Shown here one piece after another: positions 1,417-60,466 of a DNA stretch of 64,000 bases; the first letter of the stretch is position 1; the number at the start of each line of letters is the position of its first letter. The position numbers and the translations under genes are program-made. Where the stretch lies: contig JAYJMM010000090.1 of the NCBI GenBank assembly GCA_037349105.1, positions 1,228,001 to 1,292,000 of the forward strand, given 5' to 3'. This DNA comes from Limnomonas spitsbergensis. Its lineage: Eukaryota > Chlorophyta > Chlorophyceae > Chlamydomonadales. Under the pieces are notes generated by a model. It was not told where the DNA came from. It did no database searches and worked only from the letters and a program-made list of their open reading frames with translations.

Positions 1417-1544
1417 CTGTATTGCCCTCGAGGATAACAGCGCCGGGCATGCCGTCATCGCCACCAGTCACCAGCCCCGCTGCACGGCCCAATATAAGCT
1501 GCATCTCCATATGCCGGCCCACCAGCTGCCTCTCTGGTCCGAGG
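1417..1544 (-). CDS. Cyclase exon 31: start of the P-loop ATPase domain
   Basis: 128 bp, acceptor GCCACAG, donor GTGGGT, entry completing an AGC codon from exon 30 and exit after one base. It encodes LGPERQLVGRHMEMQLIL followed by PGAVILEGNTG. In sAC proteins the cyclase domains are followed by an AAA/NB-ARC-like ATPase that opens with a GR-E-motif and a Walker A loop. The donor falls after GNTG, so the GK[ST] half of Walker A must lie in the next exon, outside the window. Confidence 0.8.
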
Positions 1545-4500
1545 CTGTGGCAGTACAAACAGTAAAAATCCAAGTCAGGCAGTACAGGAGCCAAGCTATG
1601 AAGTACAAGAAACACATGGCATGCATCTCAGTATGCCTGTCCACCAGCTGCCTCACCAGACCGAGACTGCGACAGTACATGCAGTACACGCAGAACACAT
1701 CCAAGTCAGGCAGTACATGAGCCAAGCTATGAAGTACAACAAACACATGGCATGCATCTCAGTATGCCTGTCCACCAGCTGCCTCATCAGACCGAGACTG
1801 CGACAGTACATGCAGTACACGCAGAACACATCCAAGTCAAGCAGTACATGAGCCAAGCTATGAAGTACAACAAATACATGGCATGCATCTCATTATACCT
1901 GCCCATCAGCTGCCTCTCCAGCCCCAGACCCACGCAGACAAAATATAGGCAGTACAACACACACACACACATGGCAGTACAACACACACACACACATGGC
2001 AGTACAAAAACGCAGCTGTGAGCCCCTGACAGACACTCTTTTCCAACAGCCACACAAGCCTGGGGCGTTCAGCAGCAGGCAGTCACCACAGGCAGTACAG
2101 TACCCTTACCACGGCACCGACTCCCACATGCAGAACGGTGCCCGTACATCAACACGCAGTCAACCTGACAGTACAACAGTGCACATCATGCACCCCTGGC
2201 AGTACAGCACCTGCGCTGCTTGGAGACATGTGCTGGATCTAGGCTGAAAGTGACCCGGAGCACCACAGTACCTTTAATGCGGCAACGACTCCCTATGATA
2301 GATCAGTGCCCGTACATCAACAAGCAGTCACACTGGCAGTACAACAGTACACATGCACCACCTGGCAGTACATTACCTGCGCTGCTTGGTGACAGGTGCT
2401 GGCTCAGTGCTGTAAGTGACCCGGTGCACCACCAGAGGATGCTCCTTTCCCTTCACCATAATAGGGGGCAGCTGTTCATACTTGACTTGGCTCCGGACCT
2501 GCGGTCGAGACCAGGGTGTGACCATGAGGTGTGAGTGTGGGGCACAGCTGTTCATACTTGGCTGGGGACAGGGTGCTACATTTGTTCGCTTGGACTTAAC
2601 AAAGTATGAGGCTGGCCACCCAACCCTAGAAACCTGAGACGCGGACACAGAAAAACAGCCCGGGTGTACATGTGGCCCTGGTCGACAGCCTAGAAAGGCG
2701 AGCAGGAACAGGAAAGGCACACGACCAAGAAGCACTCACACGGCTGCAATAACTCATGCGCAGAAAGTTTGATCAAGGGCTAAAAATATAACTGGTACCC
2801 ATCTAGGCACCTAGCTTGGGCTCACTATCATCAGCTTCATCACTCCTTCCGGTGTGTGATATCCCACTTCCACAATTTCACACTTTCCTGTATGTCCTAC
2901 CTTACACCGCATGTACATTGCATCATCACAGCGATACAAGTGTGAACACATCACTGGCTGTAATGTAACTCATCCAAATATGTAACACCCGACTTCCACA
3001 CTTCCACGATTTTCACACGACCAGTATTGTTATTCACACTATCTTTCTGACACCGCGTGTGCGTCGCGTCATCGCAAAGCAAATCGTCGGCAATGATGCC
3101 GTCCCAGACCTTCATCATCAACAGGCGCACAAGGCGTGCAATGCTTCTCCGCCTCCATACTACTTGAATCCCCATTGCCACCACCACGTTCATATTTTTC
3201 CATACCTGACACCGCATGAACGTCGCGTCGTCGCAAAGCACGTCGCCGGAAATGATGCCGTCCTTGAGTTTCATCATCAGGCGCGCCGACATGTTGATTC
3301 CGTCCCCGAACACCTTCAGGGCAAAAGGGTGCAGGGTTGAGGGTTTAAGGCCCATGAGGGGGGGGGTCGGGTTTTAGGATTTAGGCACATGAGGGGGGTA
3401 AGAGTTCGGGTTTTAGGCAATGAGTGGGAGAGTCTAGGGTTTTAGACACATGAGGGGGAGGGTTCAGGGTTCAGGGTCTTAGGCACATCAGGGGGGGTCA
3501 GAGTTTGGGGTTCAAGCAACACAGACACAGGCTCACTGGAGCACCGTATTCGATATTTTGTACGCCCCTCATGCGCATCACTCACTGTGTACTCCAGCCT
3601 GGCTTTCCGCGCCCCCACGCAGGTGCACAAAAGATTGTCGGTGGTGACCCCAATGCAGACACGCTGCCCGCCCGCCGTGAATCGCGTCTGCAGCTCCAGA
3701 GCAGACTGCGCATTGGGCGGCAAGGTAGGCAAGGCAGGATAAGGCAGGGCAAACCGTTACGGTCAAATGGTACGGGACACATACCGGTACGGTACGGACA
3801 ATTTGTCGGACTGGTGAGAACATGGCCGATACGATGTTTTACACGATATAGTATTGTTAAATGGTGCGGTACTGACCTGCATGCCCCTCCCTTGAACTAT
3901 AAGCCCCAAACCCTAAACTGACCTGCATGCCCCTCCTTTGAACTATAAACCCCAAACCCTAAACTGAACTGCTTGCCCCTCTCTTGAACTATAACCCTTT
4001 AACCCTAAGCTGGCCTGCACACCCCTCCCCTAACCTCTTAACCCCAACCACCTAGCCATAAACCTCAAGCTGACCTGCTCGCCCCTCCCCTGAAATATAA
4101 GTCATAAAACCTGAAACCTTCACCCTTAACAGACCTGCCGGCCCATCCACTTCAGCCCTAAACCCTGAACAGACCTGCACACCCCTCCCCTAAACCTCAA
4201 ATTGACCTGCACGCCTCGTCCGGGGTTGTCCTCATATGAGTGACCCGGCAGACCAAGCCCTCAACCCTCAACCCTCCACTGACATGCACGCCCCGTTTGA
4301 GGTTGTCCTTATGTGTGTGATCTGGGAGACCAAACCCTAAACCCTCTACCCTCCACTGACATGCACGCCCCGTTCGGGGTGGTCCTTATGTGTGTGATCT
4401 GGGAGACCAAACCCTAAACCCTCTACCCTCCACTGACCTGCACGCCCCGTTCGGGGTTGTCCTCATGTGTGACCCGGCAGACCAAGCCCTGAACCCTGTA

Positions 4501-7500
4501 CCCCCCACTGAACTGCACGCGTCATTCAAGGTTGTCCTCATGTGTGTCACCCGGCAGACCAAGCCCTCAGCCCTCAACCCTCTACCCTCCACTGACCTGC
4601 ACGCCTCGTTCGGGGTTGTCCTCATGTGTGTGACCCGGCAGACCAAACACACACACGCCGACAAAGCCCTTCTCGTCACACCGGAACTGCGAGAGGAATG
4701 GATGGGAGGTGGGCTAACATACATGATTGAAGGAGGGAGGAGGGACTGTGAAGGTGGGCCAACAGGGGCAGGCCTTGTAAGAGGTGGGCCAACAGAGGCA
4801 GGCCTTTTAAGAGGCTTAAAATCTTAGACTGCAAGAAGCTTAAATCAGGCTTAGATCTCACTTGAATCAGGCTTAGATCTCACTTGAACCAGGCTTAGAT
4901 CTCACTTGAATCAGGCTTAGATCTCAATTGAACCAGACTTAGATCGCACTTGAACCAGACTTAGATCGCACTTGAACCAGGCTTCGATCTCAATTGAATC
5001 AGGCTTTGATCTCAATTGAATCAGGCTTCGATCTCAACTGAATCAGGCTTCGATCTCAATTGAATCAGGCTTCGATCTCAACTGAATCAGGCTTCGATCT
5101 CAATTGAATCAGGCTGCGATCTCAACTGAATCAGGCTTAGATCTCAACTGAATCAGGCTTCGATCTCAATTGAATCAGGCTTAGATCTCAATTGAATCAG
5201 GCTTTGATCTCAATTGAATCAGGCTTTGATCTCAATTGATCAGGCTTTGATCACAATTAAATCAGGCTTAGATCTCAATTGAATCAGGCTTTGATCTCAA
5301 TTGAATCAGGCTTCAATCTCAATTGAATCAGGCTTAGATCTCAATTGAATCAGGCTTTGATCTCAATTGAATCAGGCTTCGATCTCAATTGAATCAGGCT
5401 TCGAGGCATTCCACACAAAATGAAACCACTGCCTCATCAACCTCTGACGGCACGAGCCGCAGCCATTCGCGCATGACCTCCTCCGCCTGCTGCACCACAA
5501 ACTTATATCTACCTTAGATCTCACTTAGATCTGGCTCCGTGGCCTCCCCCACCAAAGATGACAGCATCGCATCACCCACCTGCAGACACGAGCCGCCCCA
5601 CTTGCGCATGACCTCTTCCGCCTGCTGTACCACGAACTGAACCGCATCCAACTGCCGCTGGTGCAGCACCCCCGTGCCTGCGCTCGCCTCGCCGCACGGC
5701 GTGCCCCCCTCAGCAGCAGCAGCTGCTGGGCCACAGCCCGGCAGGCTGTCGCCTGCTCCCCCCGCCGTCCTGCCGGCCCCTGCTGCTGTTCCTGTGGTGG
5801 TATGTCCTACGACAGGTGCCACGGGCGACGAACCGAACGACGATGACAGCGAAGAGGCTGATGGTGACAGAGCAGCAGCATCTCCAGCAACGGTTGCGGA
5901 GCCGGCCGGCGCTTCCTCTGCTGCTTCTGATTCTGCAAGTCCTGCAGTTGCCGCTACGGCGGCGGCTGCGGCGGCTGGATCCTCTGAGGCGGGCCTGGAC
6001 GTCTCTGCAGCCGTCGACTGCTCCGTCGCCGCGGTCGCTGGCGACGCCGCCTGCGACCGGGGTCTCGAATCCGGATGCTCCTCCAGCAGCGGGGGCGCGC
6101 TGGAGGACAGGTGGCGGTCGCCCGTCTCATGACCGGACCCGGTGCGCGTGGTTGGCAGAGGCTCGGACGCGGACACGGCGGCGGCGCCGGCTGCCGCCGC
6201 GGCAGCAACCGAGGCGTAGGTCTTTCTGGACGGCGCGTCGCCGGGCATCGGGCGCTCCTCCAATAAGGAAGGGAAGCCCAGGTACAAGACAGTCAACGGG
6301 CGGATCTCGTTTATAAAGTCGAGGTTTCCCTCCTCGATTAACCCCCGGACTGAGCTCGGGACGAGCATGCGGAGCACCGCGGCCAACCGCCGCATCGTCC
6401 GCTCGTCCACTGTAAGGGGAAGGGCACGCAGGCGTGTGGTGTGCAAAGGTGTGAGCAGGTATGGACATGGATGTGTGAAATGTCGAAAACATAGGGGTGG
6501 TCATCAATGTGTGGAATGTCGAAATACTTAGCGACACCCAGTATCAGCAGCTCCATGCAAAATTGCCTCAGACCTAACAAACCAGCCCTACACTAGATCT
6601 GTTCCCCGGATCTAACTCTAGATCCATGGCCTAGATTTATACATCGATCTATACACGCACACCTTCGCCCAGGTTCAGCGCCACTGTGGATGCATTGGAT
6701 TGTTGGCCATCTGTTGACGGTGCCCAGATGAAGATCTAGATCCATACACAAACCTTCACCCAGGTTCAGCGCAACTATGCATCGAATGGATTTCCAGCCG
6801 TCCGTTGACGGTGCCCAGATCTATATCTAGATCCATACACACAGCTTCACCCAGGGTCAGTGCCACTATGGCTCCAATTGTATTACCGGTCGTCCGTTGA
6901 CGGTGCCCAGAGCTAGATCTAGAGCCATAAAAACAACTTCGTAAGATCAGGGCCACTATGGACCCAATAGATTGCTGGCCGTTCGTTGAGGGCGTGTCTC
7001 CACCAGCCCTAGCCTAAATCCATTGCTCAGATCTATATCTAGATACAAACATCCAAACACACACCTTCACCCAGGTTCAGCGCCGCTATGGACCCAATGG
7101 ATTGCCGTCCTTCCGTTGACGGCGTGTCTCCGCCTGCGACCCCAATGCTGTCGTGATGCCGCATTCCTTTGAACGAGTCGTTCTGACAGATGGAAAGGGC
7201 AAGGGAGGCAGTGATAAGAGTTAAGGTTTAAGGGTAAATGGCTTAGGGGCAGATGAGGTGTGGCCCCAGCGGGCCCTGATGCTGTCATGATGCCACAGTC
7301 CCTTGAACGATTCATTATGACACATGGAAAGGGCAGGGGGGGGGGGGGGCAGTGATAACGGTTCAGGGCTTGGGGGCTTTGAGGCAGACGAGGTGTAACC
7401 GCGTGTTGCCTCAACTCCATCGGGGTGCTTGAGTCCTTTGACCGACTGGACCACTCTGGCATTGGCGCCTGTTCGGTCATTCATCAATCCTCACAGCATC

Positions 7501-10500: not shown

Positions 10501-13500
10501 CTGGCCCCAATCCCAAAACCCTCACCTGCTAGCCCCAATCCCAAAACCCCCACCAGGTGGCCTCATTCCCTAAACTCTTACCTGCTGGCCCCAAACCCTA
10601 AAATCTCACCAGCTGGCCCCAATCCCCAAACCCTCAACTGCTGGCCCCAATCCCTAAACCCTCACCATGTGGCCTCATTCCCTAAACCCTCACCTGCTAG
10701 CCCCAAACCCTAAACCCTCACAAGGTGGCCTCATTCCCTAAACCCTCACCTGCTGGCCCCAATCCCTAAACCCTCACCAGCTGTAGAGATATCCCCAAAG
10801 TTGAGGGTGTGGCTGGCCCGGCGGGAGGAGACTATGGAGTGCGACGCCGTGCCAGTGCCGCCCGATCTCCGTCGGAAGGCCAGGTAAGCCGGGAACGGAA
10901 TTGGCAGGACAATGCGCGGACCCACCACCACAGACGCACCCTAAGGGTGGGGGGGGTGATGCAAACACAATTAATGCATATCAAAGGCCAGGTAGGCCAG
11001 GAACGGAATTGGCAGGACCATGCACAGACCCACCACCAGAAATGCACCATGTCCGTGTGTCAATTGGGGTCCCAGGACGGTAGTGTGGCCCACAAATAGC
11101 ACCCTCCCTGTGTGTGTGTGGGGGGGGGGTGATGTTATACACTTAATTAATATCTGAGGGAAGACAATTTAAATATGAACCCTCCCCTCCTCCTCATCTC
11201 CCCTCACTTGCCCCTCCCTAGCACGCCCCCCCTTTCTCATCTTGGCTCTCCCAAAGCCAGCTCCCACACCTCAACCCCCTAGCACCTCCCTAATACATCC
11301 TCAGCACAACACCTTAACTCCACTCACCTGGCCATTCTCAGCGACCACCAGCTCCCAGACTTCCCAGCTCACCTCCCCTCCCTTGCAATTCCCCACCACA
11401 CTTCCCCCCTCCCCCCTTTTCCATCTCGGTAAGCTCTCCATCCACTCACCTGGCCATTCTCAACCGCTGCCAGATCCCACACCTCCCTGCTCCCCTCCCC
11501 TCCGTACCTCCCTACAACTCATCCTCCCTCCCCCCTTTTTCATCTCGGTAAGCTCTCCATCCACTCACCTGGCCTTTCTCAACAGCTGCCAGATCCCACA
11601 CCTCCCCCTCCTTGCACCTGCCCCCCCCCCTCACTTCATCTCGCTCTCCTTTCACCCCTTAATCTCGGTAAGCTCTCCATCCACTCACCTGGCCTTTCTC
11701 AACAGCTGCCAGCTCCCACACCTCCCCCTCCTTGCACCTGCCCCTCCCCCCCCCACTTCATCTCACTCTCCTCTCACCCCTTTTTCATCTCGGTAAACTC
11801 TCCATCCACTCACCTGGCCTTTCTCAACAGCTGCCAGATCCCACACCTCCCCCTCCTTGCACCTGCCCCCCCCCCTCACTTCATCTCGCTCTCCTTTCAC
11901 CCCTTAATCTCGGTAAGCTCTCCATCCACTCACCTGGCCTTTCTCAACAGCTGCCAGATCCCACACCTCCCCCTCCTTGCACCTGCCCCTCCCCCCCCAC
12001 TTCATCTCGCTCTCCTCTCACCCCTTAATCTCGGTAAGCTCTCCATCCACTCACCTGGCCTTTCTCAACAGCTGCCAGCTCCCACACCTCCCCATGCTGC
12101 CCAAGAAGGTAGGCAACCTCAGAGCTGATCACCACCTCTGAGGGTTGGCTGAACTCCTCGATGGCAGTCAGCTGGGCAAAGCAGCCGCGGCGGTCATCGT
12201 TGTCAATTGACGGCGCAAAGGGCCTGAGGAGGAGCGGGTCAGGGGTGCGGGTCAGGGGGGGCGGGTCAGGGGAGGCGGGTTGGGGAGGCAGTGGTAGAGT
12301 GCGAGTCAGTGAGTCAGTGAATCAGTGAATTAGTGATTGATTGAGCGAGCGAGCGAGCGAGCGAGCGAGTGAGTGAGTGAGTTAGAGTGAGTTTGAGTGA
12401 GTGAGTTAGAGTGAGTGAGTTAGAGTGAGTGAGTGAGCGAGCGAGTTTGAGTGAGTGAGTGAGCGAGTGAGCGAGTGAGTGAGTGAGTGAGTGAGCGAGT
12501 GAGCGAGTGAGTGAGTGAGTGAGCGAGCGTGTGAGTGAGTGAGCGAGCGAGGGAGTTAGAGTGAGTTAGAGTGAGTGAGTGAGCGAGTGAGCGAGTTAGA
12601 GTGAGTGAGCGAGCGAGTTAGAGTGAGTGAGAGTGAGTGAGCGAGCGAGTGAGTGAGTGAGTGAGTGAGCAAGCGAGTCAGTCAGTCAGTGTGAGGGTGA
12701 GTCAGTCAAAAACACATTACGACCTTACCTTAAGCTCGATCCTGTGGTACCCACCTATTGCCCAGAAAAAACTCCAGCATGATAGTTCAAACCCACAAAA
12801 CCCCCCACACAACCCCCCCAACCCCACAAAACCCACCCCACAGAACCTCACAAAATCCCCACTCAACTCCCCACACGAAAATCTTAACTTGCGGTGACTT
12901 AAGCATCAGACTTCGAGCACGACCCAGAAGTACCCACCTCTCCATTGCCCACCCCTCCATTGCCCACCTCTCCAGTGCTCACCTCTCCAGTGCCCACCTC
13001 TCCGGTGCCCACCTCTCCATTGCCCACCCCTCCATTGCCCACCTCTCCAGTGCCCACCTCTCCAGTGCCCACCTCTCCAGAGCCCACCTCTCCAGTGCCC
13101 ACCTCTCAAGTGCCCACCTCTCCGGCGCCCACCTCTCAAGTGCCCACCTCTCCGGTGCCCACCTCTCCAGTGCCCACCTCTCCAGTGCCCACCTCTGCAG
13201 TTCCCACCTCTCCGGTGCCCACCTCTCCAGTGCCCACCTCTCCAGTGCCCAGCTGCCCACCTCTCCAGGACCCTACCCAGTGCCCACCTCTCCGGTGCCC
13301 ACCTCTCCAGTGCCCACCTCTCCGGTGCCCACCTCTCCAGTGCCCACCTCTCCAGTGCCCACCTCTCCAGTGCCCACCTCTCCAGTGCCCAGCTGCCCAC
13401 CTCTCCAGGACCCTACCCAGTACCCACATATCCCCCAGGAAGAAGCTCCAGCTGAGTATCTCCCCACACAACTCCCACACTACTCCCACACCACTTCTAC

Positions 13501-16500
13501 CCAGTACCCACCTATCCCCCAGGAAGAAGCTCCAGCTGAGTATCTCCCCACACAACTCCCACACTACTCCCACACCACTCCTACCCAGTACCCACCTATC
13601 CCCCAGGAAGAAGCTCCAGCTGAGTATCTCCCCACACAACTCCCACACTACTCCCACACCACTCCTACCCAGTACCCACCTATCCCCCAGGAAGAAGCTC
13701 CAGCTGAGTATCTCCCCACACAACTCCCACACTACTCCCACACCACTCCTACCCAGTACCCACCTATCCCCCAGGAAGAAGCTCCAGCTGGGTATCTGCC
13801 CCTGGCCGTCTCCCTCGACGACTCCCCCCACATTAAACACACAGACCGTGCCTGTAAGATGTGGTGTACAGTGCAGTACAGTTTGAATTCAGGATATGAG
13901 GGTGCAGTACAGCTACAATACAGGATGTAAGGATGCGGTACAGTTTGATTACATGACAGGAGGGTGCAGTACAATTCGATTACAGGTTGTAAGGATGCGG
14001 TGCATAACAAGACATGGGGGTGCAGTACATTTTGATTGCGGGACATGATGGGCGGTACAGTTTGAGAATACGAGGGTGCAGTACAGATATATTACAGGGT
14101 ATACAGATGCGGTACCGTTAGCCATGAGCCAAGCCGGCAACTAGGTCAGCCACATGTTCACACCAACGTACGGCATGCCAGCGCACCATTCAGGTAAATT
14201 GCAATATTGGAGTGCAGGTCATTTATTGTATACAGGATATTCGGGTATGGTACAGTTTGAATACCGTGAAACCGGATAGGGTCCGCGCAGCCCTGTTGAG
14301 AGCTAATATATCAAATCCGTTGCACAGGCAAAAAGTACCCTACTCCGCGCACGCACATCTGAAATGTTTCATATCTGGTGCCGGAAACATGACTCCGCGC
14401 ACACCCAAAGTACGGTAGTTGTTTATCATTATTCTATTGCGCATCAATTCCACGCTCCCCTAACAACAATTAATTGATAGCAGAGTCAAACCTGTTCTAC
14501 GGTCCCGTATATTAGGGTTTGGTGCAGTTTGAATCCAGGCTATCAGGGTTTGGTGCCGTTCACATCCAGTTTTCTTGGGTGCAAGGCTGTCTGGACTCTG
14601 GATCCAGACTAACAGGGTGAGGTACAAGCGCTAAAATTTGGGACCCATCTGGTTTAGCCCCCTGTCCCCCCCCCTGAAGTTTGGTTCCAAGCATTTGGGG
14701 CATGACACACATATGATCCACACATTTAGGGTACTGCGTTTGGATCCTGGCATTCAGGGTGCAACGCATATTGGATCCAAGCATTGAAGGTACAGCTTTC
14801 GGATCAAGGCATTTAGGGTACGGCACATATTGGATCCAAGCGTTTAGGATACAACGCAAATTGGATCCAAGCATTGAAGGTACAGTTTTGGGATCCAGGC
14901 ATTTAGGATACGGCACATACCGGTAATGGATCCAATCATTTAAGATGCAGCTTTGGGATCCAGGCATTAATGGTACGGCACAGATTGGATCCAGGCATTT
15001 AGGGTACGGCAAATATTGGATCCAGGCATGTAGGGTGCGGCACATATTGGATCCATGTATTTAGGGTACGGCACATTTTGGATCCATGCATGTAGGGTGT
15101 GGCACATATTGGATCCATGCATGTAGGGTGTGGCACATATTGGATCCATGCATTTAGGGTACGGCACATTTTGGATCCAGGCATTCAGGATACGGCACAT
15201 AATGGATCCAAGTATTCAGGATACGGCACATAAGCTCGAGGCCCCACATTTTAGCTTGAAGTTCCCAATCCACCTCAGTAATGGAGGGGACATCATTATC
15301 CCCTGGATTTATCGTATACAAATAGATCAAGGCCCATGTGTCACCATCAAGGCCCACCATGCCACCCTGAAGGCCCACCTTGAAGGCCCACCATGAAGGC
15401 CCACCATGCCACCATGAAGGCCCACCATGAAGGCCCACCATGCCACAACGAAGGCCCACCATCAAGGTCCACCATGCCACCATGGAGGCCCACCATCAAG
15501 ACCACCATGCCACCATGAAGGCCCACCATACAACAACGAAGGCCCACCATGAAGGCCCACCATGCCACCTTGAAGGCCCACGATGCCACCATCAATGCCC
15601 ACCATGCCACCATCAATGCCCACCATGAAGGCCCATCATGCCACCATCAAGGCCCACGATCAAGGCGCACCATACCACCATGAAGGCTCACCTGCGCTGA
15701 CCATCAGCTTGAGGCTCAGAGTCAGGCTGTCGAGGGAGATATCTGGAGTTGCCCGCGGCTGAGGTGTTGGGAGTGAGAGGTGTGGGGTGGGGAATGAGAA
15801 GAGTGGGGAGTGACAAGAGTGGGAGTGACAAGGGTGGGGAGTGGGGGGGGGGTGGGGATATATCTGGAGTTGCCCGTGCCTGAGGTGTGGGGTGGGGAAT
15901 GAGAAGGGTGGGGAGTGACAAGAGTGGGAGTGACAAGGGTGGGGAGTGGGGGGGGGTGGGGATATATCTGGAGTTGCCCGTGCCTGAGGTGTGGGGTGGG
16001 GAATGAGAAGGGTGGGGAGTGACAAGAGTGGGAGTGACAAGAGTGGGAGTGACAAGGGTGGGGAGTGGGGGGGTTGGGGATACATCTGGAGTTGCCCGTG
16101 CCTGAGGTGTGGGGTGGGGAGGGATGAGGACGGGGATGGAGATCTGGAGTGGGGAGTGAGAAGGGTGGGGAGTGAGAGGTTTGGGGTGTGGAGTGAGAGG
16201 TGTGGGGAGTGAGAGGGGTGGGGTGGGGAGTGAGAAGGTTGGGGAGATGGAGGTGTGGGATGGGGAATGAAGAGGATGGGGAGAGAGAGGTTTGGTGTGG
16301 GGAGAGAGAAGAGGGGGACTGATATCGCTGGCACCGCCCGTGGCTGATGTGTGGGGAAGAAGAGGTGTAATGAGTGAGATATATGTGGAAGATAACATGG
16401 CATGCAGTGCCCCCCCCTTCCCAGCTCTGATCCCACGCTGAGGTGGTATCGAGCGGCTGGCCAGAGGCCGTAAGAAAGCGAGCACGACATATGCGCACAC

Positions 16501-19500
16501 ACACAGAAGAAAGAAAGCTATTCCCCATGGGCGGCGTGAGCGTTAGAAAAGGAAACAGCACAGCAGGGGCCGAAGCCACATCCGCGCCGTTACGCGCACA
16601 ACCAACATGCCTGATGACACGTGAATGTGACAGCAAGCTGCTAGCCAGAAGCTGCATGAACGTGAACACCCACTCAAACAAATGCACACATAAACTGAAT
16701 CCTGAAGAGAAACAAACCTGCGGCAACAGGCTACTGGCCAGAGGCTGCATGAAAATGAACACCCACACACATACAATGAACCCTAGCGAAAAACTCACCT
16801 GCGGCAACAGGCTGCTAGCCAGAGGCTGCATGAAGGTGAATACTGGGGAGGAGGGCTCTTGGGCCTCGGCGGATGCGACCTGCTGAACAGAACGGCGGGT
16901 AGGGGAAGACACCTGTGAAGAGGGGGTAGGGAGGCAGTGCTTATTTTTGTCAGGACTGAGTAAGAATGCGACCTGCTGAACAGAACGGCAGGGAGGGGAA
17001 GACACCTGTGAAGAGGGTGTAGGGAGGCAGTGCTTATTTTTGTCAGGACCGAGTAAGAATGCGACCTGCTGAACAGAACGGCAGGGAGGGGAAGACACCT
17101 GTGAAGAGGGTGTAGGGAGGCAGTGCTTATTTTTGTCAGGACCGAGTAAGAATGCGACCTGCTGAACAGAACGGCAGGGAGGGGTCATTACAGAGTATAA
17201 TCATGGTTGTATCAAAGGTTTTTGTAATTTAATTTAATTATGTTTGCACATGAAAAATCATGCGCGAGATCAAGCAAAAAGACACCCCTTTCTTGCACGA
17301 AAAGCAATCACAGCCTTCCGCCCCTCACCCCCCCTCCACTGCCCCCCCTCCACTGCCCCCCCTCCACTGCCCCCCCTCCACAGCCCCCCCTCCACTGCCC
17401 CCCTCCACTGCCCCCCCTCCACTGCCCCCCCTCCACTGCCCCCCCTCCACTGCCCCCCCTCCACTGCCCCCCCTCCACTGCCCCCCCTCCACTGCCCCCC
17501 CTCCACTGCCCCCCCTCCACTGCCCCCCCCACCTCGTGCACCACACTAGGCGTCAGGGGGATCCGCGATATGCTCGTTAGGGGTTTCGTCTGAGGTGCCA
17601 GCCGTAAAGGAAGCTTCCCCCTGAACATGGATGCAACCTGGGTCGGGGGCAAGGACACGGGGATTCAGAGGAAAGAAGGGAGTGAGCAGGTATAGGGGGG
17701 GATGGGGTAGGGAAGGGGGGAGGGGGAGGGAAGGGAGGTGAGGGGGTAGGGAAGGGAGGGGGGGGGGGAACGGAGGGAGAGAGGAGGCTCAGGGGGGGTG
17801 AGGGGGGGAGGGGAGGGAAGGGGTGGAGAGGGGGAGGGAAGGGAAGGGGGGGGGGAGTGATGGGGGGGGGGCCTGGCCGCTATATCAATCCGTGTTGTCA
17901 ATCTGTCCCCACTACAGGATCAGAACTAACCCTTGACAAGATGCTGAGATCTAGATCCCCAGGGTCTACAAGCGGATCCATCCCCAATGTATACAACAGG
18001 ATCAGGACTGACCCTTGACACGCTGCTGAGATCAAGATCCCCGGATTTAGAAGTGGGTCCATCCCCAATATGTAGCACAGGACCCTATATGGACCCTTGA
18101 CTCGCTGCTGAAATCTAGATCCCCGGATCTACAAGTGGATCCATCCCCAATATATAGCACAGGACTATGACTGACCTTGACAAGAAGCTGAGATCTAGAT
18201 CCCTGAGGTCTACAACCGGATCCATCCCCAATGTATAGAACAGGACCGTGGCTGACCCTTAACACACTGCTGAGATCTAGATCCCTGAGGTCTACAACCG
18301 GATCCATACCCAATATATAGAACAGGACCGTGACTGAATCTTAACACAATGCTGAGATCTAGATCCCTGAGGTCTACAACCGGATCCATCCCCCATACAT
18401 AGAACAGGACCGTGACTGACATTTCAAACAATGCTGAGTTCTACATCCCCAGGATCTACGACAGGATCCATGCCCAATATATACAACAGGATCAGAACTG
18501 ACCCTTGACACAATGCTGAGATCTAGATCCCCTCGGCCGCTGCCTGTTGGTGCTGCCTTGCCCTCGCCCTCGGCTGGATAAGCCTCTTGCCCTATGCGGC
18601 TGAGGGGGCTTGCCTCTGTTCCGCGACCGAGGGGGCTTGCCTCTGCCGCGCTCCCAGTACGGCCGAGGGGGGTCGCCTCTACACCAATATTGCCGGCAGA
18701 GCCTGTGGGGCGGGTTGGGGCCACAGTCGGGTTTTAGTGTTCAAGGTCCAGGGTTCAGGTCCAGGGTTTATGTTCAGGGTCCAGGTTCAGGTTCAAGGAA
18801 CAGGGTTTAGGTTGAAGGTTCCGGTTTAATGTCCAGGGTTAAGGTACAGGGTCTAGGTTCAAGGTCCAGGGTTTAAGTTCAAGGTTCAGGGTTCAGGGTT
18901 TAGGTTCAATGTCAAGGGTTTAGACACGTGTCTCCTTGTCGCCACCCCAAGGGCACAGCCAGCACGGCCCGCTGCATGTCCAGGGTTAAGGGGTTCAGGT
19001 TCAAGGTCCAGGGTTCAGGGGTTAAGGCAGCTGCGTACCTCGTTGTTGTCCCCCCAGGGGCGCAGCCAGCACGGACCGCGGCAGGTCCTCCGTGTTAGAG
19101 CTTAATCGGCGCAGCGAGTAGGGGGGCTTAGGGAACATGAAAGACGCGGACAGAGGCGGCGCGACGGCCGAGGAGGTGCTGGGGGCGTCGGGGTGAGTAA
19201 GTGGCGGCAGCGGCGGCGCTGCCGCAGCAGCCTGCTCCGTGACCAGGTCTCGGTTTTTGCTGGTGATGGGCTGGAACATCCCACGGGCACCCCCTGTGGC
19301 GCCTGCGGCATTCCAATTTGGGGGGGTCAGGTATGTTTGCCTATATGGGTCAAAATAGTAAAATACAGCACAAATGACAGGACAGGTTTAGCCGGATTAC
19401 GCTACCAAGGTAGCACGATGCGGCACAGGTGTAGCCGGATTGTTTCACCATGGTTTGGTTATTACAGGTCAAGGGTTTGGGTTTAAAACCTTACATGGTG

Positions 19501-43500: not shown

Positions 43501-46500
43501 CGACGTCTCTTGTTCCACAATTATGGAAGACCCTGCTCTGTTGGTCTTTGAGGCTAGCATTATCGTTCTCCTGAAAAGCCAGGTTCAGCCTATTTGCTTG
43601 CGTGTGCGCTTCCAAATCATCCAATGACAGCCACCAAGTGGGGCGTGCATGGAGAGGGCTATCTATGGTATCATGCCTAGTCTTCGTCCTCGTGCATGTT
43701 TTGTCATGTTCAAACTGCCTGGCTCCATTAGGGTTGGCTCCCCCATAACCCGTTAACCCCAAGTAAGCCCTAAACTGCTCCCCCATAAACCCATTAACCC
43801 CTAGTAACCACTAAACTGCTCCCCCATAAACCCGTTAACCCCTAGTAAGCCCTAAACTGCTCCCCCATAAACCCTTTAACCCCTAGTAAGCCCTAAACTG
43901 CTCCCTAATTAACCCGTTAACCCCTATTAATCCCTACACTGCTCCCCATAAACCCGTTAACCCCTAGTAACCCCTAAACTGCTCCCCCATAAACCCGTTT
44001 ACCCCTAGTAACCCCTAAACTGCTCCCCCATAAACCCGTTAACCCCTAGTAAGCCCTAACCTGCTCCCCAATAAACAAGTTAACCCCTAGTAAGCCCTAA
44101 CCTGCTCCCTAATTAACCCGTTAACCCCTAGTAAGCCCTAAACTGCTACCCCATTAACCCGTTAACCCCTAGTAAGCCCTAAACTGCTCCCCCATAAACC
44201 CGTTAACCCCTAGTAACCCCTACACTGCTCCCCCATTAACCCGTTAACCCCTAGTAAGCCCTAAACTGCTCCCCCATTAACCCGTTAACCCCTAGTAAGC
44301 CCTAGTAAGCTCCCCCATAAACCCGTTAACCCCTAGTAAGCCCTAAACTGCTCCCCCATTAACCCGTTAACCCCTAGTAAGCCCTTAACTGCTCCCCCAT
44401 AAACCCGTTAACCCCTAGTAACCCCTAAACTGCTCCCCCATAAACCCGTTAACCCCTAGTAACCCCTAAACTGCTCCCCCATAAACCCGTTAACCCCTAG
44501 TAACCCCTAAACTGCTCCCTAATTAACCCGTCAACCCCTAGTAAGCCCTAAACTGCTCCCCCATAAACCCGATAACCCCTATTAACCCCTAAACTTCTCC
44601 CCCATTAACCCGTTAACCCCTAGTAAGCCCTAAACTGCTCCCCCATAAACCCGTTAACCCCTAGTAAGCCCTAAACTGCTCCCCCATAAACCAGTTAACC
44701 CCTAGTAACCCCTACACTGCTCCCCCATAAACCCGTTAACCCCTAGTAACCCCTACACTGCTCCCCCATAAACCCGTTAACCCCTAGTAAGCCCTAAACT
44801 GCTCCCCCATAAACCCGTTTACCCCTAGTAAGCCCTAAACTGCTCCCCTATAAACCCGTTAACCCCTAGTAAGCCCTAAACTGCTCCCCCATAAACCCGT
44901 TAACCCCTAGTAACCCCTAAACTGCTCCCTAATTAACCCGTTAACCCCTAGTAAGCCCTAAACTGCTCCCCCATAAACCCGTTAACCCCTAGTAAGCCCT
45001 AAACTGCTCCCCCATTAACCCGTTAACCCCTAGTAAGCCCTAAACTGCTCCCCCATTAACCCGTTAACCCCTAGTAACCCCTACACTGCTCCCCCATAAA
45101 CCTGTTAACCCCTAGTAACCCCTAAACTGCTGCCCCATACACCCGTTAACCCCTAGTAAGCCCTAAACTGCTCCCCCATAAACCTGTTAACCCCTAAACT
45201 CCTAGCAACCTCTAGACCCCTTAACTGCTCCCATATAAAACCATTAACCCACACCCCCCAGCTCAGATTCCGCTTTACCCAGACACAATTGTCCTCCTCC
45301 GTGCCCCAGCCCTAGCCCCCTCCCCCATTCGCTCTGCCCCCAGCCCTGCCCCCCCCATTCATACCCTCAAACCCACAAAAGCATTCGCCGAGGTGCTCAA
45401 GTGCTCCTTCTTCATTTGACTGGAGTGCAGTGGCGAGAGGTTGGTGCTTGGGTTCATGCTGTTGACAGGTGACAGCACCCGCATGGATTCCACCTGTACA
45501 GGTGTGTTAGGGTTTGAACGTCTGGGGTTGAGTGTCATAAGGGGTTGAAGGCCAGGGGTTGGGGTATGGTTAAATGTGTTTAGGAGCGAGGGTTCATACT
45601 GTTGACATGAGACAGGATGTGCATGGATTCCACCTGTAAAAATGGGGTTAGGGTTCAAGTGTCCGGGGTTGGATGTCGTCAGGGTTTAAAGGCCAGGGGT
45701 CAGGGCCTGGTTTAATGTGTTTAGGAGCGAGGGTTCATACTGTTGACAGGAGACAGCACCCGCATGGATTCCACCTGTACAAATGGGGTTGGGGTTTGGG
45801 CGTCCGGGGTTGAGTGTCATAAGGTTTGAGAGGTTGGGGGGTGGGGTATGGTTAAATGCACTTTTGAGCATGGAATTTTCCCGGCTACGAATCCACCTTC
45901 GAATGCAGCCCCGCAGCCGCCAAAGGCCTGATTGGGACCAAGACTGGACCAACCTACGGCTGGCGGCCGAAGCAGCTGGGTTGGCCAAAGATGGGTCTTC
46001 GGCTGGAGGCCGGAGTGTAACTGACACATAGCTGAGTCACGACAAAAGAAAATGGTGTTAAACCTCTAGACCTTACAAGCTCTGAGCCCAGAGAAGCACT
46101 GTGATTAACGTGGGGATGCCGTCTGCACACCCTCATCCCGAGGTGTTTCTTGAAGTAGGTAGGCGTAAGCCACTAAGACAACTTGCGCAAGATGTCCCAG
46201 TGGCTCACGCCTCCTACTTCAACAAACATCCCCTACCTGTCCATTGGCATACATTGACCTCCATGCGGACCTGTTGCCCAGCCTGGCACAGGTGTGTCTT
46301 GCAAGCCAGTGTGGGCACTGGATGCATCCCCCTGCCGACCCTGCCCCCCCCCCACATGGACACATCTCGACACCCTTCTGCCCGATACCCGCATCCCTCA
46401 CCTGTCCATTGGCCTCCATGCGGACCTGCTGCCCAGCCTGGCACAGGTGTGTCTTGCAAGCCAGTGTGGGCACTGGATGCATCCCCCCGCCGACCCTGCC

Positions 46501-49500
46501 CCCCCCCCACATGGACACATCTCGACACCCTTCTGCCCGATACCCGCATCCCTCACCTGTCCATTGGCCTTCATGCGGACCTGCTGCCCAGCCTGGCACA
46601 GGTGTGTCTTGCAAGCCAGTGTGGGCACTGGATGCATCCCCCTGCCGACCCTGCCCCCCCCCCACATGGACACATCTCGACACCCTTCTGCCCGATACCC
46701 GCATCCCTCACCTGTCCATTGGCCTTCATGCGGACCTGTTGCCCAGCCTGGCACAGGTGTGTCTTGCAAGCCAGTGTGGGCACTGGATGCATCCCCCTGC
46801 CGACCCTGCCCCCCCCCCACATGGACACATCTCGACACCCTTCTGCCCGATACCCGCATCCCTCACCTGTCCATTGGCCTTCATGCGGACCTGCTGCCCA
46901 GCCTGGCACAGGTGTGTCTTGCAAGCCAGTGTGGGCACTGGATGCATCCCCCTGCCGACCCTGCCCCCCCCCCCACATGGACACATCTCGACACCCTTCT
47001 GCCCGATACCCGCATCCCTCACATGTCCATTGGCCTTCATGCGGACCTGCTGCCCAGGGTTTAGCTTGTAGGGTTTAGGTTGTAGGATTATGCATCCCTC
47101 ACCTGTCCATTGGCCTTCTTGCGGACGTTTAGGGTTTAGGGTTAAGGGTTAAGGGTTTAGGGATCTGCATCCCTCACCTGTCCATTAGCCTTCATGCGGA
47201 CGTTTCCCAGGTGTTGCGCGAGCTGGTGCGAGCACTGGATGCATCGAGCCACCGCAGCAGCCAGCGGGGCGTCCGCTGTGACCGAGTGTTGTGGCTGCTG
47301 CTGGGAGGGGTGCGGCTGCAAGTGTTGTGGCTGCTGCTGTGACGAGGGGTGCGGCTGCGGGTGCGGCTGCGAGTGCTGTGGCTGCTGCTGTGACGAGGGG
47401 TACGGCTGCGGATGCAGCTGAGAGGGCTGTGGCTGCAGCGGATGCTGTGCCTGCGAGTGCTGTGAGTGTTGTGAGCCCTGAGAGGTCTGCTGCTGCTGCT
47501 GAGAGGGCTGCTGCTGCTGCTGAGAGGTCTGCTGCGGCGGCTGCTGCTGCTGCTCGTGGTCGCCCGCCGGTTCCGCGTAAAAGGCGACGATCATGGAGTC
47601 CCCGGCAAACTTGATGACGTCGCCGTCATAAGCGTCGATGCAGCTGTTCGCAGTTCGGGGTTGAGGGATCAGGGTGCAATGTCGAGTGTTCAGGATTCAG
47701 GGTTCTGGGTAAAGGGTTTCAGGTGCTGAAAACGTCGCCATCACAAGCGTTGCGGTTCAAGGTTGAGAGATCAAATTTCAAGTCAAGTGTTCAGGATAGA
47801 GGGGTTCGGGTTCAGGATTTAGGATTCAGGGTTGAGGATTCAACAATTAGGGTTCAGGATTCAGGGTTTAGGATTCAGGACATTCAGGGTCAAGGGTTCA
47901 GAGTGTAGGGTTCAGTATTCAGGGTTAAGGGTGCAGTATATTAGGCGTTGATGACATATTTATTCTTAGCTTCAGTGCATCTGCTTGCGGTTTGCAGTTG
48001 GCGGTTGGCAGTTGGTAGTTTGGGGCCTGATTCAGACAACTGGTTCAGGGGATCAGGATAAAGTTTAACAGTCTCCAGCGATCTCAATGATATCTCCATG
48101 GGCAGCCACGCAGTTGTAGGTGCTTGCGGTTGGCAGTTGGCGGTTGGCAGTTGGTAGTTGGAGTTGGGGCCTGGTTCAGACAACTGGTTCAGGGTATCAG
48201 GATAAAGTTTAACAGTCTCCAGCGATCTCAATGCTCCATCGATAGCCACGCAGTTTTAGGTGCTTGAGGTTCAGGGTTTAGCGCGTTGGACATCCACGCA
48301 TCTGTTTGTGCTTGATGTTCCGGGTTAATGGTTAAGGGTTAAGGTCGTTAGGCATCCGTGCAGTGGTGGGTGCTTGAGGTTCAGGGTGATGGTTTAGGGC
48401 CTTAGGCATCCATGCAGCTGTGGGTGCTTGAGCTTCAAGGTTTAGGGTGTAGGGCGTTAGGCATCAGTGCAGTGGTGGGCGCTTGAGGTTCAGGGTTAGC
48501 GGTGCAGGGTTTAAGGTTCGAGGTATAAGGCAGCAGACATCACCGCGGCAGTTGGTAGCTGAGGTATAGGGTGCAGGGGTTTGTGCTAAGGGTCTGGGGT
48601 CCAGGCGTATGTGCAGCTGTTGGTGGTTAGGGTTATGGGTTCAAGGTTTTAAGCATCGATGCACACTCGATGGCATAATTATCGTGGCCATTCAAACCGC
48701 AGTTGGTCAGTTGGGTGTATTTGAATTCAAACGAAACTATGCGTATTGTACGCGCACTGCAATGGGCTCGAACAAAACGAAATACACTAATTTCGAACAT
48801 TTGAACTCAAACAAAACAAAACGAATTCCACATGAATGCGCACGTGAAATAACAGCTGTTCATGCAGGTTACGCTTCCCTCACCTGATCACGCGTGCAAA
48901 GTAGTTGTTCATGCAGGTGCTGAGCAGCTCCACACCTCCGGATCCTGATCCAGTGCAAGAAGGGGGGATAAATTAGTAGACAAGGCAGTGGACAGGGCGG
49001 TGGACAAATCAGTGGCCAGGGCAGATTGCATGTAGGTGCTGATCAGCTCCACACCTCCGGAACCTGATCCAGCGCAAGAATGGGGGAGGGGCAGCTCAGT
49101 GAGAAAATAATTGGATAAGGCAGTGGCCAGGGCAGATTGCTTGCAGGTGCTGAGCAGCTCCACACATCCGAACCTGATCCAGCGCAAGAATGGGGGAAGG
49201 GAAGCTCAGTGGGAAAATAGTGGATAAGGCAGTGAACAGGGCAGTTGACAAATCAGTGGCCAGGGTAGGTGGCATGCAGGCTGAGCAGCTCAACACCTCC
49301 GGAACCTGATCCAGCGCTAGAATGGGGGAGGGGCAGCTCAGTGGGGAAGTTGTGGATAGGGCAGTGGACAGGGCAGATTGCATGCAGGTGCTGAGCAGCT
49401 CCACACCTCCATTACTTGATCAAGGTCAAGGGGGGGTAGCTCAGTGTACAGGGCAGTGGACGAATTTATTAGTAGATAAGGCAGTGGATGGGGCAGATTG

Positions 49501-52500
49501 GAAGCAGGTGCTTCATAACTCCACACCTCCAGAACCTGATCAAGTGCAAGAAAGGGGGATAAATAAGTAGACAAGGCAGTGGACAGGGCAGTGGACGAAT
49601 CAGTGGACAGGGCAGATTGCGTGCAGGTGCTTGATAGCTCAACAGCTCCAGAGCCTGATCCAGCTCAAGACTGTATTTTAAAAATGGTAACACCCACAGG
49701 GCAAAGGATATATATACCGTATACCGTATATATATATATATATATATATACACATAAATACCGTAGACTTTATTTGCCTCCGCGAACGCTCAGTTTTTAT
49801 TTATTATTATTAATCAGGATATGCAGAAAACACGCTGTCGTAAGGCGCTCGGGCCGAAATCAATACTTTCGTAAGCCGCGCACCGCACTGGGTAACTGTT
49901 CCTAAACCCCACCGAACGGTTCTCAAACTTGGGTTGCGCAGTGCCGTTGTTACAGTAGGTAAACTGGTCGCGGTGCAGATATTGCATGTGCATCTGTACG
50001 GTACCGGTGAGTGGACAAGGTGTGACGCGCGTGCGCGTGCGCGCACAAGCAATTGTTTAATATTGCGTGATAAGCCGCAAATGCGTCTTTGAGTTAATTG
50101 TTAAAGTATTCATTAATCCGAGAAGGCAAATTCACATTAATTTCTTGCGGAGGCAAAGCGCATCTACGGTACTTGAAAGAATAACAGCACACAATTCTTC
50201 TTTTTTTCAAATTTTAGGTAGGCATAGGTAGCAAGGCAGTTATATCCCTGGTTATATCGGCCACTTCAGACACGAAAATGAAGCGTTCTCTCTCACCCCT
50301 TTTTGACAGGATTTCCGTCAGCTTCGTGAACCCCTTGACATCTGCTACCATGATGGCCGCGGGCATCTCCGTCATGCTCGGCTTGAGCTTCCGGGATGCG
50401 GCAGCTACGTCATCAAGGCCCTGCAGTGAATAAAGGAATGGACAGCGTTAACAAATGGAAGGAAAGGAAGGTTATTTGGCACTGGGGCATCTCTGTCATG
50501 CTCGGGTTGAGCTTGCGAGATGCGGCAGCAAGGTCGTCAAGGCCCTGCAATTAGTAAATGAATGAACAGCCTGAATAAATGGAAGAGAAGGAAGAAGAAA
50601 TGGCAATGGGCAGGCTTCCATTCCCAGCTCATGCCATTCAGGAAAGAGTGCAAGAGGGGGAAATGCTATAGGAAACAAATGTGATTCAGGATAAGAGTTT
50701 ATGAGGACTAGAGTGTGTTTGCCGCAGCAGCAGCCAAGTCCTCCTGGTCATGCAAACAAAAATTGAAGGACTGCATGAATTTATGACAGGCTGGGCAGGC
50801 TACCATTCCGGGTGCCCGCAAATGAGGAGGGCGTAGAAATCATCTGGGAATCAGGGAACAGTGTGTGGGCTGCAGCAGATAGATTATGAGATGCAGCTAA
50901 ATCGTTACTGAAGCCCCCAACACATGTAAAACAATTGCATGATGTAGCTGAATTGTAGCTGACGCCCGCCACAAAAACAATCGGCGCAACAGCACATTAC
51001 CTGAACCGCGTCGAACGCAGCAAACCGGCCGTCGTCCTCTCGTATGCTGTCCCGCAGGAGCTTTGGGACGAAGGGCGCCAGCGCCATGACCGGCCGCATG
51101 AGCGGGGAGCTGCTCGGCGAATTGCGGTGCTCGGACGAGCAACGATAGACGCTCGAGGCCATGGGCCGCATGGAGCGTGGCACTGCCGAAGTTGCGACAG
51201 GCCTCTCAGCTGCACAGTGTCACAGTATAGACGGCAATTAGGGTTGGAGGTTGAGGACTGATGGTTCAGGGTTCATGCATATTTCCACATCCCTTTCCAT
51301 GACCCTTTCCAAATCCCTGTCCATGACCCTTTCCAAATCCCTTCCCATGACCCTTTCCAAATCCCTGTCCATGACCCTTTCCAAATCCCTTCCCATGACC
51401 CTTTCCAAATCCCTTCCCATGCCACCCTTTCCATAACCCATTCCAAATCCCTTTCCATGCCTCTCTTTCCATGCCACCCTTTCCATTCCATCCTTTCCAT
51501 GCCACCCTTTCCATGCCATCCTTTCCATGCCACCCTTTTCCATGCCAACCTTTCCATGCCACCCTTTCCATGCCATCCTTTCCATGCCACCCTTTCCATG
51601 TCCCCTTTCCATGCCACCCTTTCCATGCCACCCTTTCCATGCCACCCTTTCCATGCCACTCTTTCCATGCCACCCTTTCCATGCCACCCTTTCCATGCCA
51701 CCCTTTCCATGCCACCCTTTCCATGCCACTCTTTCCATGCCACCCTTTTCCATGCCACCCTTTCCATGCCACTCTTTCCATGCCACCCTTTCCATGCCAC
51801 CCTTTCCATGCCACCCTTTCCATGCCACCCTTTCCATGCCACCCTTTCCATGCCACCCTTTCCATGCCAACCTATCCATGCCACCCTTTCCATGCCACCC
51901 TTTCCATGCCACCCTTTCCATGCCACCCTTTCCATGTCACCCTTTCCATGCCACCCTTTTCCATGCCACCCTTTCCATGCCACCCTTTCCATGCCATCCT
52001 TTCCATGCCACCCTTTCCATGCCACCCTTTCCATGCCACCCTTTCCATGCCACCCTTTCCATGCCACCCTTTCCATGCCACCCTTTCCATGTCACCCTTT
52101 CCATGCCACCCTTTCCATGCCCCTCTTTCCATACCCCCCTTTCCATGTTACCCTGTCCATGCCACCCATTTCATGCCACCCTTTCCATGTCCCCTTTCCA
52201 TGCCACCTTTTCCATGCCCCCATTTCCATGCCCTTGTTTCCATGCCCCCCTTTCTATGCCCCCGTTTCCATACCCCCCTTCACATGCCCCTCTTGTCTAT
52301 GCCCCCTTTCCAGGCCCCCCCCCCCTCCTTTCCATACCCCCCCCTTTCCATGCCCCTCACGTTATGACGTCTGCTCCTGCTCCATTCCATCATTCCATAA
52401 AACCACATGCACAGCTGGTCACCTCATGTGGTCATGCCTCATATCCCCACGATGCCCATGCTGACACCCTCCCCATGGCCCTCATAACCTCTGCCCCACC

Positions 52501-56275: not shown

Positions 56276-57085
56276 TGCTGCACTATGGGGTTCATTCCCA
56301 CGCTACTGCTCGGTGGTTGAGTGTTGGTTGCTTGCCCAGGGGGGTCATTGGTTTTCGCTCGCTGTCCTAGCATATTTAGTGCCTGTACCGGTTTACGGGC
56401 ACAAGTCCCATGCATCAAATGTGATGCCCCGTTGGACTGTAAAAACTTCACTTCACTTCACCGGCATGAAGACGAATTTGCCCTCACACGAGGCAAATAA
56501 ATCGAGTATTTTCAACCACCGGGCCAAAAAGTAGTTTTTCTTATTTAAGCCTCAGGGGCCATCGACGGTTGTGTCAATGTACGAAGCCACTTTAATGGAA
56601 ACTGCTTGGTGCTTTGCTAGCGAGATAAGGCGTAGCAACCGCAGGGGTAGGTAGGAACGCATAGAGTATGACTACAAGAATACTGGTGCCTCTGTGGGAA
56701 AGTGAGGAATCTGCACGGTACCAGTATCGGTGCTCACGGGCAAAAAAGCAGGATTTAATTATTAAGTTAAGCCTTACGGTCCTGCAATAATGAATTAATC
56801 AGCCGCATTTTTTTTCCGCGCAAGCCAATTATCAGTAGACAATGCGACGGCAAAGGACGGATACGGGGTAGAGTAGCACCGAGGTAAAATCCCCATCATT
56901 AAAATGTGTGAAGTTTTTACAGTCCGTCAGAGCATCAGAGTTGATGCATGGGATATGTGCCCGTAAACCGGTAAAGGCACTTGATATGCTAGGACAGAAA
57001 GCGAAAACCAGTGACCCCCCTGGGCAAGCAACTAGCACACAACCACGACAGTGGCGTGGGAATGAACCCCATAGTGCAAAAACAA
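56276..57085. mobile_element. Foldback element with inverted arms of about 190 bp
   Basis: 56276-56465 and the reverse complement of 56897-57085 match closely: cactatggggttcattccca, ttgcttgcccaggggggtca, gtccta gcatat, ccggtttacgggcaca and gactgtaaaaacttcac occur in both in the same order. The 430-bp middle has no convincing reading frame. A foldback/MITE-like element or two inverted copies of one repeat. Confidence 0.85.
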
Positions 57086-58570: not shown

Positions 58571-58740
58571 AGGACTTAACAAGGTGTGAGGCCAGCCGCC
58601 CGACCCTAGAAAGCCCGAGACGCAAGCAGAAAAGTAGCCGGCAGAGGACCCGGGTGCACATGAGCCCCTCTTCGTCAGCTGAGAAGCTGCAAGCAAGCGC
58701 AGGAAATAAAGGTACACGACCAACAAGCACTTGCACGGCC
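58571..58740. repeat. Dispersed repeat, copy 2
   Basis: gacttaacaaggtgtgaggc ... cgaccctagaaagcccgaga ... gtacacgaccaacaagcact corresponds in order and orientation to 2590-2755, with small indels. Confidence 0.7.
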
Positions 58741-60011: not shown

Positions 60012-60466
60012 TACTTCGTCCCTTTCAAAAGGACAGACCTCTTCTGTAACAAGCTCCGGCCGTCACCCAGTGCGTGAGACCCGAGGTGTACCTTAAGTCA
60101 GTACCTACAACAAGTCAAGACTACCTCAGCTTCCGCTGAGATAGCAAGAGAACAAGACCTCAGTTGAGGAACGAGATCCCTGCCGAACAAGTAGTTCGCA
60201 GTCTACGATCCCGTACCCTCACCGCGTGTGACGCGGTAAGTGCACCTGATAGCCTAGCTGGTTCGCGACCAGACAGCCTGAAGGCCTGCGCCAACCCTTG
60301 CTATTGCCTGACATACAAATACAAATCTAGCGGCTTAACTCGTTGAGCACCCGCAGCCAGTGAGTAGTCACGAAGTCTGCCCGTAGGCGCCCATCACTGT
60401 CGTGAGGGAGAAGTCCGCCACGGACCTGAAGCGCACAACGCGTGTCCTTTTGAAAGGGACGAAGTA
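60012..60466. other. 24-bp inverted repeat enclosing a hairpin cluster
   Basis: tacttcgtccctttcaaaag then gaca at 60012-60035 is the exact reverse complement of 60443-60466. Inside lie consecutive small hairpins: CTCAGC/GCTGAG (about 60125), CCTCA/TGAGG (about 60152), ACCGCGT/ACGCGGT (about 60220) and CTGGT/ACCAG (about 60258). Function unknown: non-autonomous element, structured RNA or part of a larger transposon. Confidence 0.65.

Follow-up and report, generated by a model that had tools for sequence, protein, structure and literature searches.

The 64,000-nucleotide stretch of contig JAYJMM010000090.1 analysed here (the window; contig positions 1,228,001-1,292,000) comes from Limnomonas spitsbergensis, a snow alga of the Chlamydomonadales whose published assembly comprises 260,248,090 bp in 124 contigs with 54.15% GC (PMC11228838). 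Most of the window is occupied, on the reverse strand, by a gene of the soluble adenylyl cyclase type (ADCY10-like) that runs on below window position 1 and whose introns carry copies of the edges of the adjoining exons. The identity of this gene is given by the joined exons 25-31, which matched human ADCY10 (PDB 4cm2, E = 7.9e-9), and by the joined exons 4-8, which also matched ADCY10 (PDB 4oya, E = 4.5e-5) with an alignment spanning exons 5-7. Pfam gave no match for three open reading frames (ORFs) of the cyclase gene in the window, whereas the PDB comparison did.

The exon model was read from frame and splice sites and follows the numbering of a first-pass annotation of the same DNA; E18b was added in this analysis, and exons 1-3, 23, 24 and 26 stand outside the 26-exon model. 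AG precedes and GT follows all 26 exons once the donor of E16 is shifted by 1 nt, and of the 25 steps between neighbouring exons 24 are continuous in frame. The remaining step is E22-E25, from which the model lacks exons 23-24. Seven homologous proteins were found among 8000 candidates scored, two of them named by the source as green algal (Haematococcus lacustris and Volvox africanus). When these homologues were aligned back to the window by tblastn, the matches were contiguous over exons 5-6-7 (P0003) and over exons 21-22 and 25-27-28-29 (P0001 and others). Three intronic copies of exon 27's end gave additional, partial matches to them. Neither tRNA genes nor Rfam families were detected in the scans made for them.

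For the comparison of exon edges with introns, the outer 45 exonic nucleotides were aligned to up to 1.5 kb of intron on both sides, the controls being 100 shuffles and the flanks of exons of this gene that are not neighbours, and an edge was counted as positive when it beat all of them. On its own side, a copy was found for 11/26 of the 5' edges and 15/26 of the 3' edges (26/52 in total), so that both boundary types are duplicated and at least one edge was positive in 21 of the 26 exons. Wrong-side positives amounted to 3/52 (2/26 for 5' edges and 1/26 for 3' edges), namely E6 twice, since this exon is only 52 nt long and its ends overlap, and E29 marginally (23 vs 22). It is confirmed that edge copies occur in the introns of the cyclase gene more often than by chance. 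The first-pass annotation, which had described tandem, degenerate copies of the 5' edges upstream and of the 3' edges downstream and had proposed alignment against shuffled and distant intron sequence, was borne out in this respect. Most of the clear cases it listed hold. Two are weaker, the 5' edge of E19, where the array carries the splice site with only about 7 exon nt (exon-only score 14), and the 3' edge of E31 (score 24 vs a shuffle maximum of 25). Positive exons missing from its list are E11, E13, E14, E15, E17, E18, E25, E29 and E30. The exon-only test was negative at both edges of E4, E10, E16, E18b and E28; despite this result, E16 presents two junction-spanning copies.

Copies that span the junction, with at least 12 exon and at least 8 intron bases, a score of at least 36 and a position within 3 kb, numbered 66 in 24 edge families, and their identity to the true edge ranges from 75 to 100%, with a median of 88%. 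The divergence is mixed: four of the five copies of the exon 21 edge are 98-100% identical, and the exon 25 edge copy is 79% identical. An assembly or sequencing artefact could be suspected in a long-read assembly with such repetitive introns, but this degree of divergence, the finding of copies at many loci on several contigs and the polishing of the assembly with both long and short reads, as described for it in PMC11228838, make it almost negligible as an explanation. Some copies are open in frame, as would fit misplaced exon boundaries and copies that are real repeated exons. Nevertheless, the frame chain over 24 of the 25 joins, the ADCY10 alignment across exons 5-7 and the homologues that run contiguously across three groups of exons render this highly improbable. 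The edge copies are collected in Table 1.

Table 1. Cyclase gene and exon-edge copies in its introns (positions in the window)
Feature	Position	Strand	Exon, basis or remark
Cyclase gene, 26 exons defined	1417..51209	-	PDB matches, homologous proteins, frame chain
Exon 5 5' edge copy, 85% identical, AG kept	50485..50594	-	exon 50420-50297
Exon 6 5' edge, six copies	49029..49670	-	exon 48935-48884, 52 nt
Exon 7 5' edge, degenerate copies	47730..48660 (extent from first-pass annotation)	-	exon 47643-47178; score 28 vs shuffle maximum 23
Exon 7 3' edge, six copies, mostly within 155-nt array	46391..47117	-	edge alignment
Exon 8 5' edge, two copies	45590..45824	-	exon 45493-45365
Exon 9 3' edge copies	29776..30181	-	exon 30507-30357
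Exon 11 5' edge copy	29294-29337	-	edge alignment
Exon 11 3' edge copy	28883..28961	-	exon 29200-29090
Exon 12 5' edge copies	28064-28331	-	edge alignment
Exon 12 3' edge, five copies	26938..27563	-	exon 27993-27800; one more by reading, about 26860-26930
Exon 13 3' edge copy	26538..26622	-	exon 26827-26699
Exon 14 5' edge copies	23240..23484	-	exon 23178-23049
Exon 14 3' edge copy	22894-22966	-	edge alignment
Exon 15 5' edge copy	22769..22820	-	exon 22708-22589; score 41, position by reading
Exon 17 3' edge copy, donor GT lost	18880..18976	-	exon 19302-19039
Exon 18 3' edge, seven copies, 82-nt array	17911..18442	-	exon 18702-18503
Exon 19 acceptor repeated with about 7 exon nt, 93-nt array	16873-17184	-	by reading
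Exon 19 3' edge copy	16685..16738	-	exon 16879-16799; another just downstream by reading
Exon 20 5' edge, three copies	15855..16163	-	exon 15758-15692
Exon 21 3' edge, 84-nt array, 98-100% identical, young, runs into exon	13412..13763	-	exon 13851-13764
Exon 22 3' edge array, 120-nt unit	11319..12054	-	exon 12223-12055
Exon 25 3' edge, single copy	5384..5503	-	exon 6409-5580; adjoins 22-nt satellite 4843-5401
Exon 27 3' edge copies	4203..4596	-	exon 4686-4597; three matched by homologous proteins
Exon 29 3' edge copy	3043..3122	-	exon 3313-3206; score 53, position by reading
Exon 30 3' edge copy	2149..2266	-	exon 2498-2377; 5' edge copy just upstream of exon
Exon 31 5' edge, 131-nt array	1550..1929	-	exon 1544-1417

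After exon 25 nesting is visible by reading, as the intron part of the edge copy adjoins the satellite. Other features of the gene are a long Gln/His-rich insertion within the first cyclase domain (exon 7, about 47310-47540) and a non-LTR (long terminal repeat) retrotransposon of the LINE (long interspersed nuclear element) type at 33909-43810, which has the same orientation as the gene and sits in the intron that follows exon 8. This retrotransposon presents endonuclease, reverse transcriptase and RNase H in two frames, with a weak PHD finger below the cut-off, and is bordered on both sides by the same 41-nt satellite.

The same comparison was extended to other cyclase genes of the assembly (260,226,709 bases, 124 contigs), where 78 cyclase-domain matches provided 16 exons at 13 loci. 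The limits of these exons were taken from the Pfam matches rather than from splice sites, and the loci include close paralogues (L003/L004 and two exons of L013); L005, almost the same as L004, was excluded. Upstream copies of the 5' end were found for 11/16 exons and downstream copies of the 3' end for 6/16 (17/32 ends), with none on the wrong side (0/32). In the next 20 kb of the cyclase gene beyond the window, with five exons placed by homology, 2/9 edges were positive (E33 3' and E34 5') and 0/9 on the wrong side; in E36 the 3' flank is only 178 nt and the acceptor is uncertain. The TIC110 gene (L009), which was identified from one weak match and then two homologues, served as a control, and the ends of its last four exons showed no edge copies (0/8). 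Its introns of 153 and 160 nt carry no local repeats (three tiles each), and its 472-nt intron carries them in 7 of 10 tiles, none at the exon ends. By reading, the sequence preceding one TIC110 exon recurs, diverged, in the following intron (L009, about 3310-3360 and 4060-4110), a recurrence that, unlike the cyclase edge copies, crosses to the other side of the exon. Regarding this data, the pattern is common in cyclase genes and not general, and the claim that nearly every exon is affected stands for the exons of the model in the window but not for the further edges of the same gene or for TIC110.

Local self-alignment found a copy within 3 kb for 57% of positions 1417-51209 (LINE included) versus 3% of 53100-64000. 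The stretch beyond 53100 is almost without local repeats, though it adjoins the repeat-filled gene. In nineteen 10-kb stretches elsewhere, five of them chosen at cyclase matches, the local-copy share ranged from 0 to 100%; none of the 20 ORFs of these stretches showed a Pfam family above the cut-off, and no homologue was found for a second ORF (L011). Between two recent paralogues with 97.8% identity over 4,174 bases, there are two insertions or deletions of at least 8 nt (326 and 13 nt). Since the 326-nt difference is a change in an 81-nt tandem array, which is not established as an exon-edge array, tandem arrays of this kind do turn over. Moreover, a tandem run of 12 similar cyclase-domain matches with a spacing of 3.4-5.8 kb was observed at C20:232900-276889, with one internal TGA in 11 of the 12, and at L022:5771-6466 (reverse strand) a segment NTHKSL.R.AAEAA.MS stands four times in tandem and in frame, with decayed copies after it.

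The distribution of local copies along the cyclase gene was obtained by cutting it into 45-nt tiles and seeking a copy of each within 1.5 kb. Of the 480 intron tiles that lie 180 nt or more away from exons, 83% have a local copy on either side (72-73% per side); the distant one-sided comparison used as a control gave 1.8% of 279. The value is 38% for the intron tile adjoining the acceptor and 58% for the one adjoining the donor, 42% (5') and 58% (3') for the outer exon tile (own side 42% and 54%), and 23% and 27% for the second exon tile (own side 0 and 18%, 22 tiles each). Copy frequency declines toward and into the exon, with no peak at the junction.

A toy simulation was run with uniform tandem duplications of 20-160 nt units, rejection of exon-internal events and introns that start at 200 nt each and grow to 36 kb in total (five runs per setting). 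When 10%, 30% or 100% of the edge-crossing events were kept, 11-17%, 38-40% and 68-72% of the simulated edges had own-side copies, respectively, and the observed own-side 42% and 54% fall between 30% and 100% retention. The simulation is a plausibility check and not a fit.

These results can be best explained if the edge copies are a by-product of random local tandem duplication over the cyclase gene that is tolerated across exon edges, a reading to which a probability of about 0.78 is assigned. Short local tandem duplications, with units of some 20-160 nt, would arise all over the gene, by slippage or end-joining, and would be re-amplified repeatedly as minisatellites through unequal exchange. 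Duplications within exons would be purged by selection and those within introns retained. Those crossing one exon edge could often be tolerated because the exon body and one intact splice site remain, and splicing would ignore the copies. In this way a spare exon edge would be left in the intron and then decay, and the position of 5' edges upstream and 3' edges downstream would follow from tandem duplication itself. In keeping with the repeated local duplication across splice junctions proposed in the first-pass annotation, the copies lie nearby in tandem, keep to the side of their own edge, differ in divergence and show no excess at the edges.

The same annotation had also considered a recombination or repair process that targets the junctions. 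A process of this kind, such as breakage coupled to transcription or splicing, or the copying of nascent RNA, would favour exon edges, and the presence of at least one edge copy in 21 of the 26 exons could be ascribed to it. However, mid-intron DNA is locally duplicated more often than the edges, the edge rate can be reached by uniform duplication, which even overpredicts copies beside exons, and few of the further edges of the gene are positive (2/9). Targeting is therefore not supported, nor is it needed for the observed edge rate, and it is considered very unlikely.

On the other hand, several points weigh against random tolerated duplication. The simulation used arbitrary values for the starting introns, the unit lengths and the mutation rate. 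With 30% and 100% of the events kept, the simulated intron tile next to the acceptor has a copy in 82-88% of cases versus the observed 38%, and the simulated intron interior in 98-99% versus 83%; at full retention the second exon tile has an own-side copy in 27-40% versus the observed 0 and 18%. This misfit suggests that duplications beside exons are scarcer than simulated rather than more frequent, and it slightly reduces the confidence in this explanation. Furthermore, the pattern has so far been seen only in cyclase genes, with no positive end in TIC110 and few in the cyclase gene beyond the window, so that the intensity of edge copying varies.

The splice sites of the copies bear on the possibility that these act as alternative splice sites, alternative edges or decoys under selection. 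Of the 66 copies, 60 retain an intact AG or GT, and, with the copies pooled, the raw per-base identity at these dinucleotides is above that of the flanks, although copies within one array are not independent. When families were counted, the 5' dinucleotide was mismatch-free in 8/8 and 7/8 families versus a flank mean of 0.73, with 3/28 flank positions as high, and the 3' dinucleotide in 11/16 and 15/16 families versus 0.78, with 9/28 as high. The raw counts had suggested that these splice sites are under selection, which the family-wise counts did not clearly uphold. At another cyclase locus (L006:1267-1791) the exon-edge copies share an open frame with the exon and carry CLFGDTVN three times, at a spacing of 126 nt by translation, so that splicing to an acceptor further upstream would give a longer protein and introduce no stop. 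This arrangement would be compatible with a function, but the exon 27 edge segment is present once in each of the two homologues read (P0001 and P0004). Judging from the sequence, the copies appear to offer no evidence of function, and a functional role is regarded as quite improbable.

Telomere-like heptads are also found in the window between 154 and 48454, with 94 matches to CCCTAAACCCTAAA (at most two mismatches) versus 0.56 expected, 42 of them inside a 28-nt array at 9630-10783. None lies in the defined exons, in the LINE or beyond 53.1 kb of the window, and heptads are also present in 12 of the 19 10-kb stretches elsewhere in the genome. In mammals, telomeric inserts are described in PMC2246262 as arising during break repair. 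It is conceivable, though unlikely, that introns in this genome grow via repeated break-and-repair that lays down edge copies together with CCCTAAA-type heptads, and that this growth continually supplies extra splice sites and material from which new exons and introns could form; the heptads may in that case be linked to the edge copies.

The view that no described mode of intron growth fits this gene has to be abandoned, since the amphioxus "mirages" share its anatomy. These are minisatellite-like tandem duplications across intron-exon boundaries, described in PMC3087553 for Adh3 and the globins BflGb6 and BflGb9, where the repeat units measure 10-72 and 150-160 bp, boundaries of either type (5' or 3') are affected, and the copies are diverged, with AG/GT present in many but not all of them. 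Haplotypes vary there in copy number and splicing is seemingly undisturbed (PMC3087553), and the lancelet PGBD5 and TnC genes are additional cases according to PMC3902484. The cyclase gene likewise shows boundary-spanning tandem repeats at 5' and 3' edges, with diverged copies, most of which keep AG/GT. Nevertheless, the amphioxus mirages concern one or few boundaries per gene in a chordate, whereas here 21/26 exons of one gene and further cyclase genes are involved in a green alga, in introns that consist mostly of tandem repeats. Undisturbed splicing and allelic instability are reported for the amphioxus mirages; the algal observations that bear on these points are the single exon 27 edge in the two homologues read and the 326-nt array change between the paralogues.

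Tandem duplication over an intron-exon boundary has also been described as the origin of a new intron in a potato gene (PMC4974935), and intron gain by tandem duplication is the subject of the Rogers and Gao-Lynch models, as cited in PMC3087553. Such events likewise cross the boundary, but they create an intron, while in the alga existing introns are lengthened. Introners are dispersed mobile copies, whereas within the cyclase gene the edge copies sit in the intron beside their own exon, and the distant-flank controls did not show the same element at unrelated introns of this gene. Introner elements are presented in PMC9860276 as a source of intron sequence. No boundary repeats in algae were found in the open-access literature searched, a weak negative given its partial coverage, and the same searches turned up neither such a density in one gene, nor the spread over cyclase genes, nor a green-algal host. 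The kind of structure is already known from mirages, and what is new is its density and the green-algal host.

The cyclase gene contains dozens of edge copies that have diverged to different degrees, in a species with published full-length transcripts. If the pattern is genome-wide, this alga would be a dense natural experiment on intron lengthening and the origin of spare splice sites, and mirages, so far an oddity of lancelets, would become a result to be expected repeatedly where tandem duplication is locally frequent.

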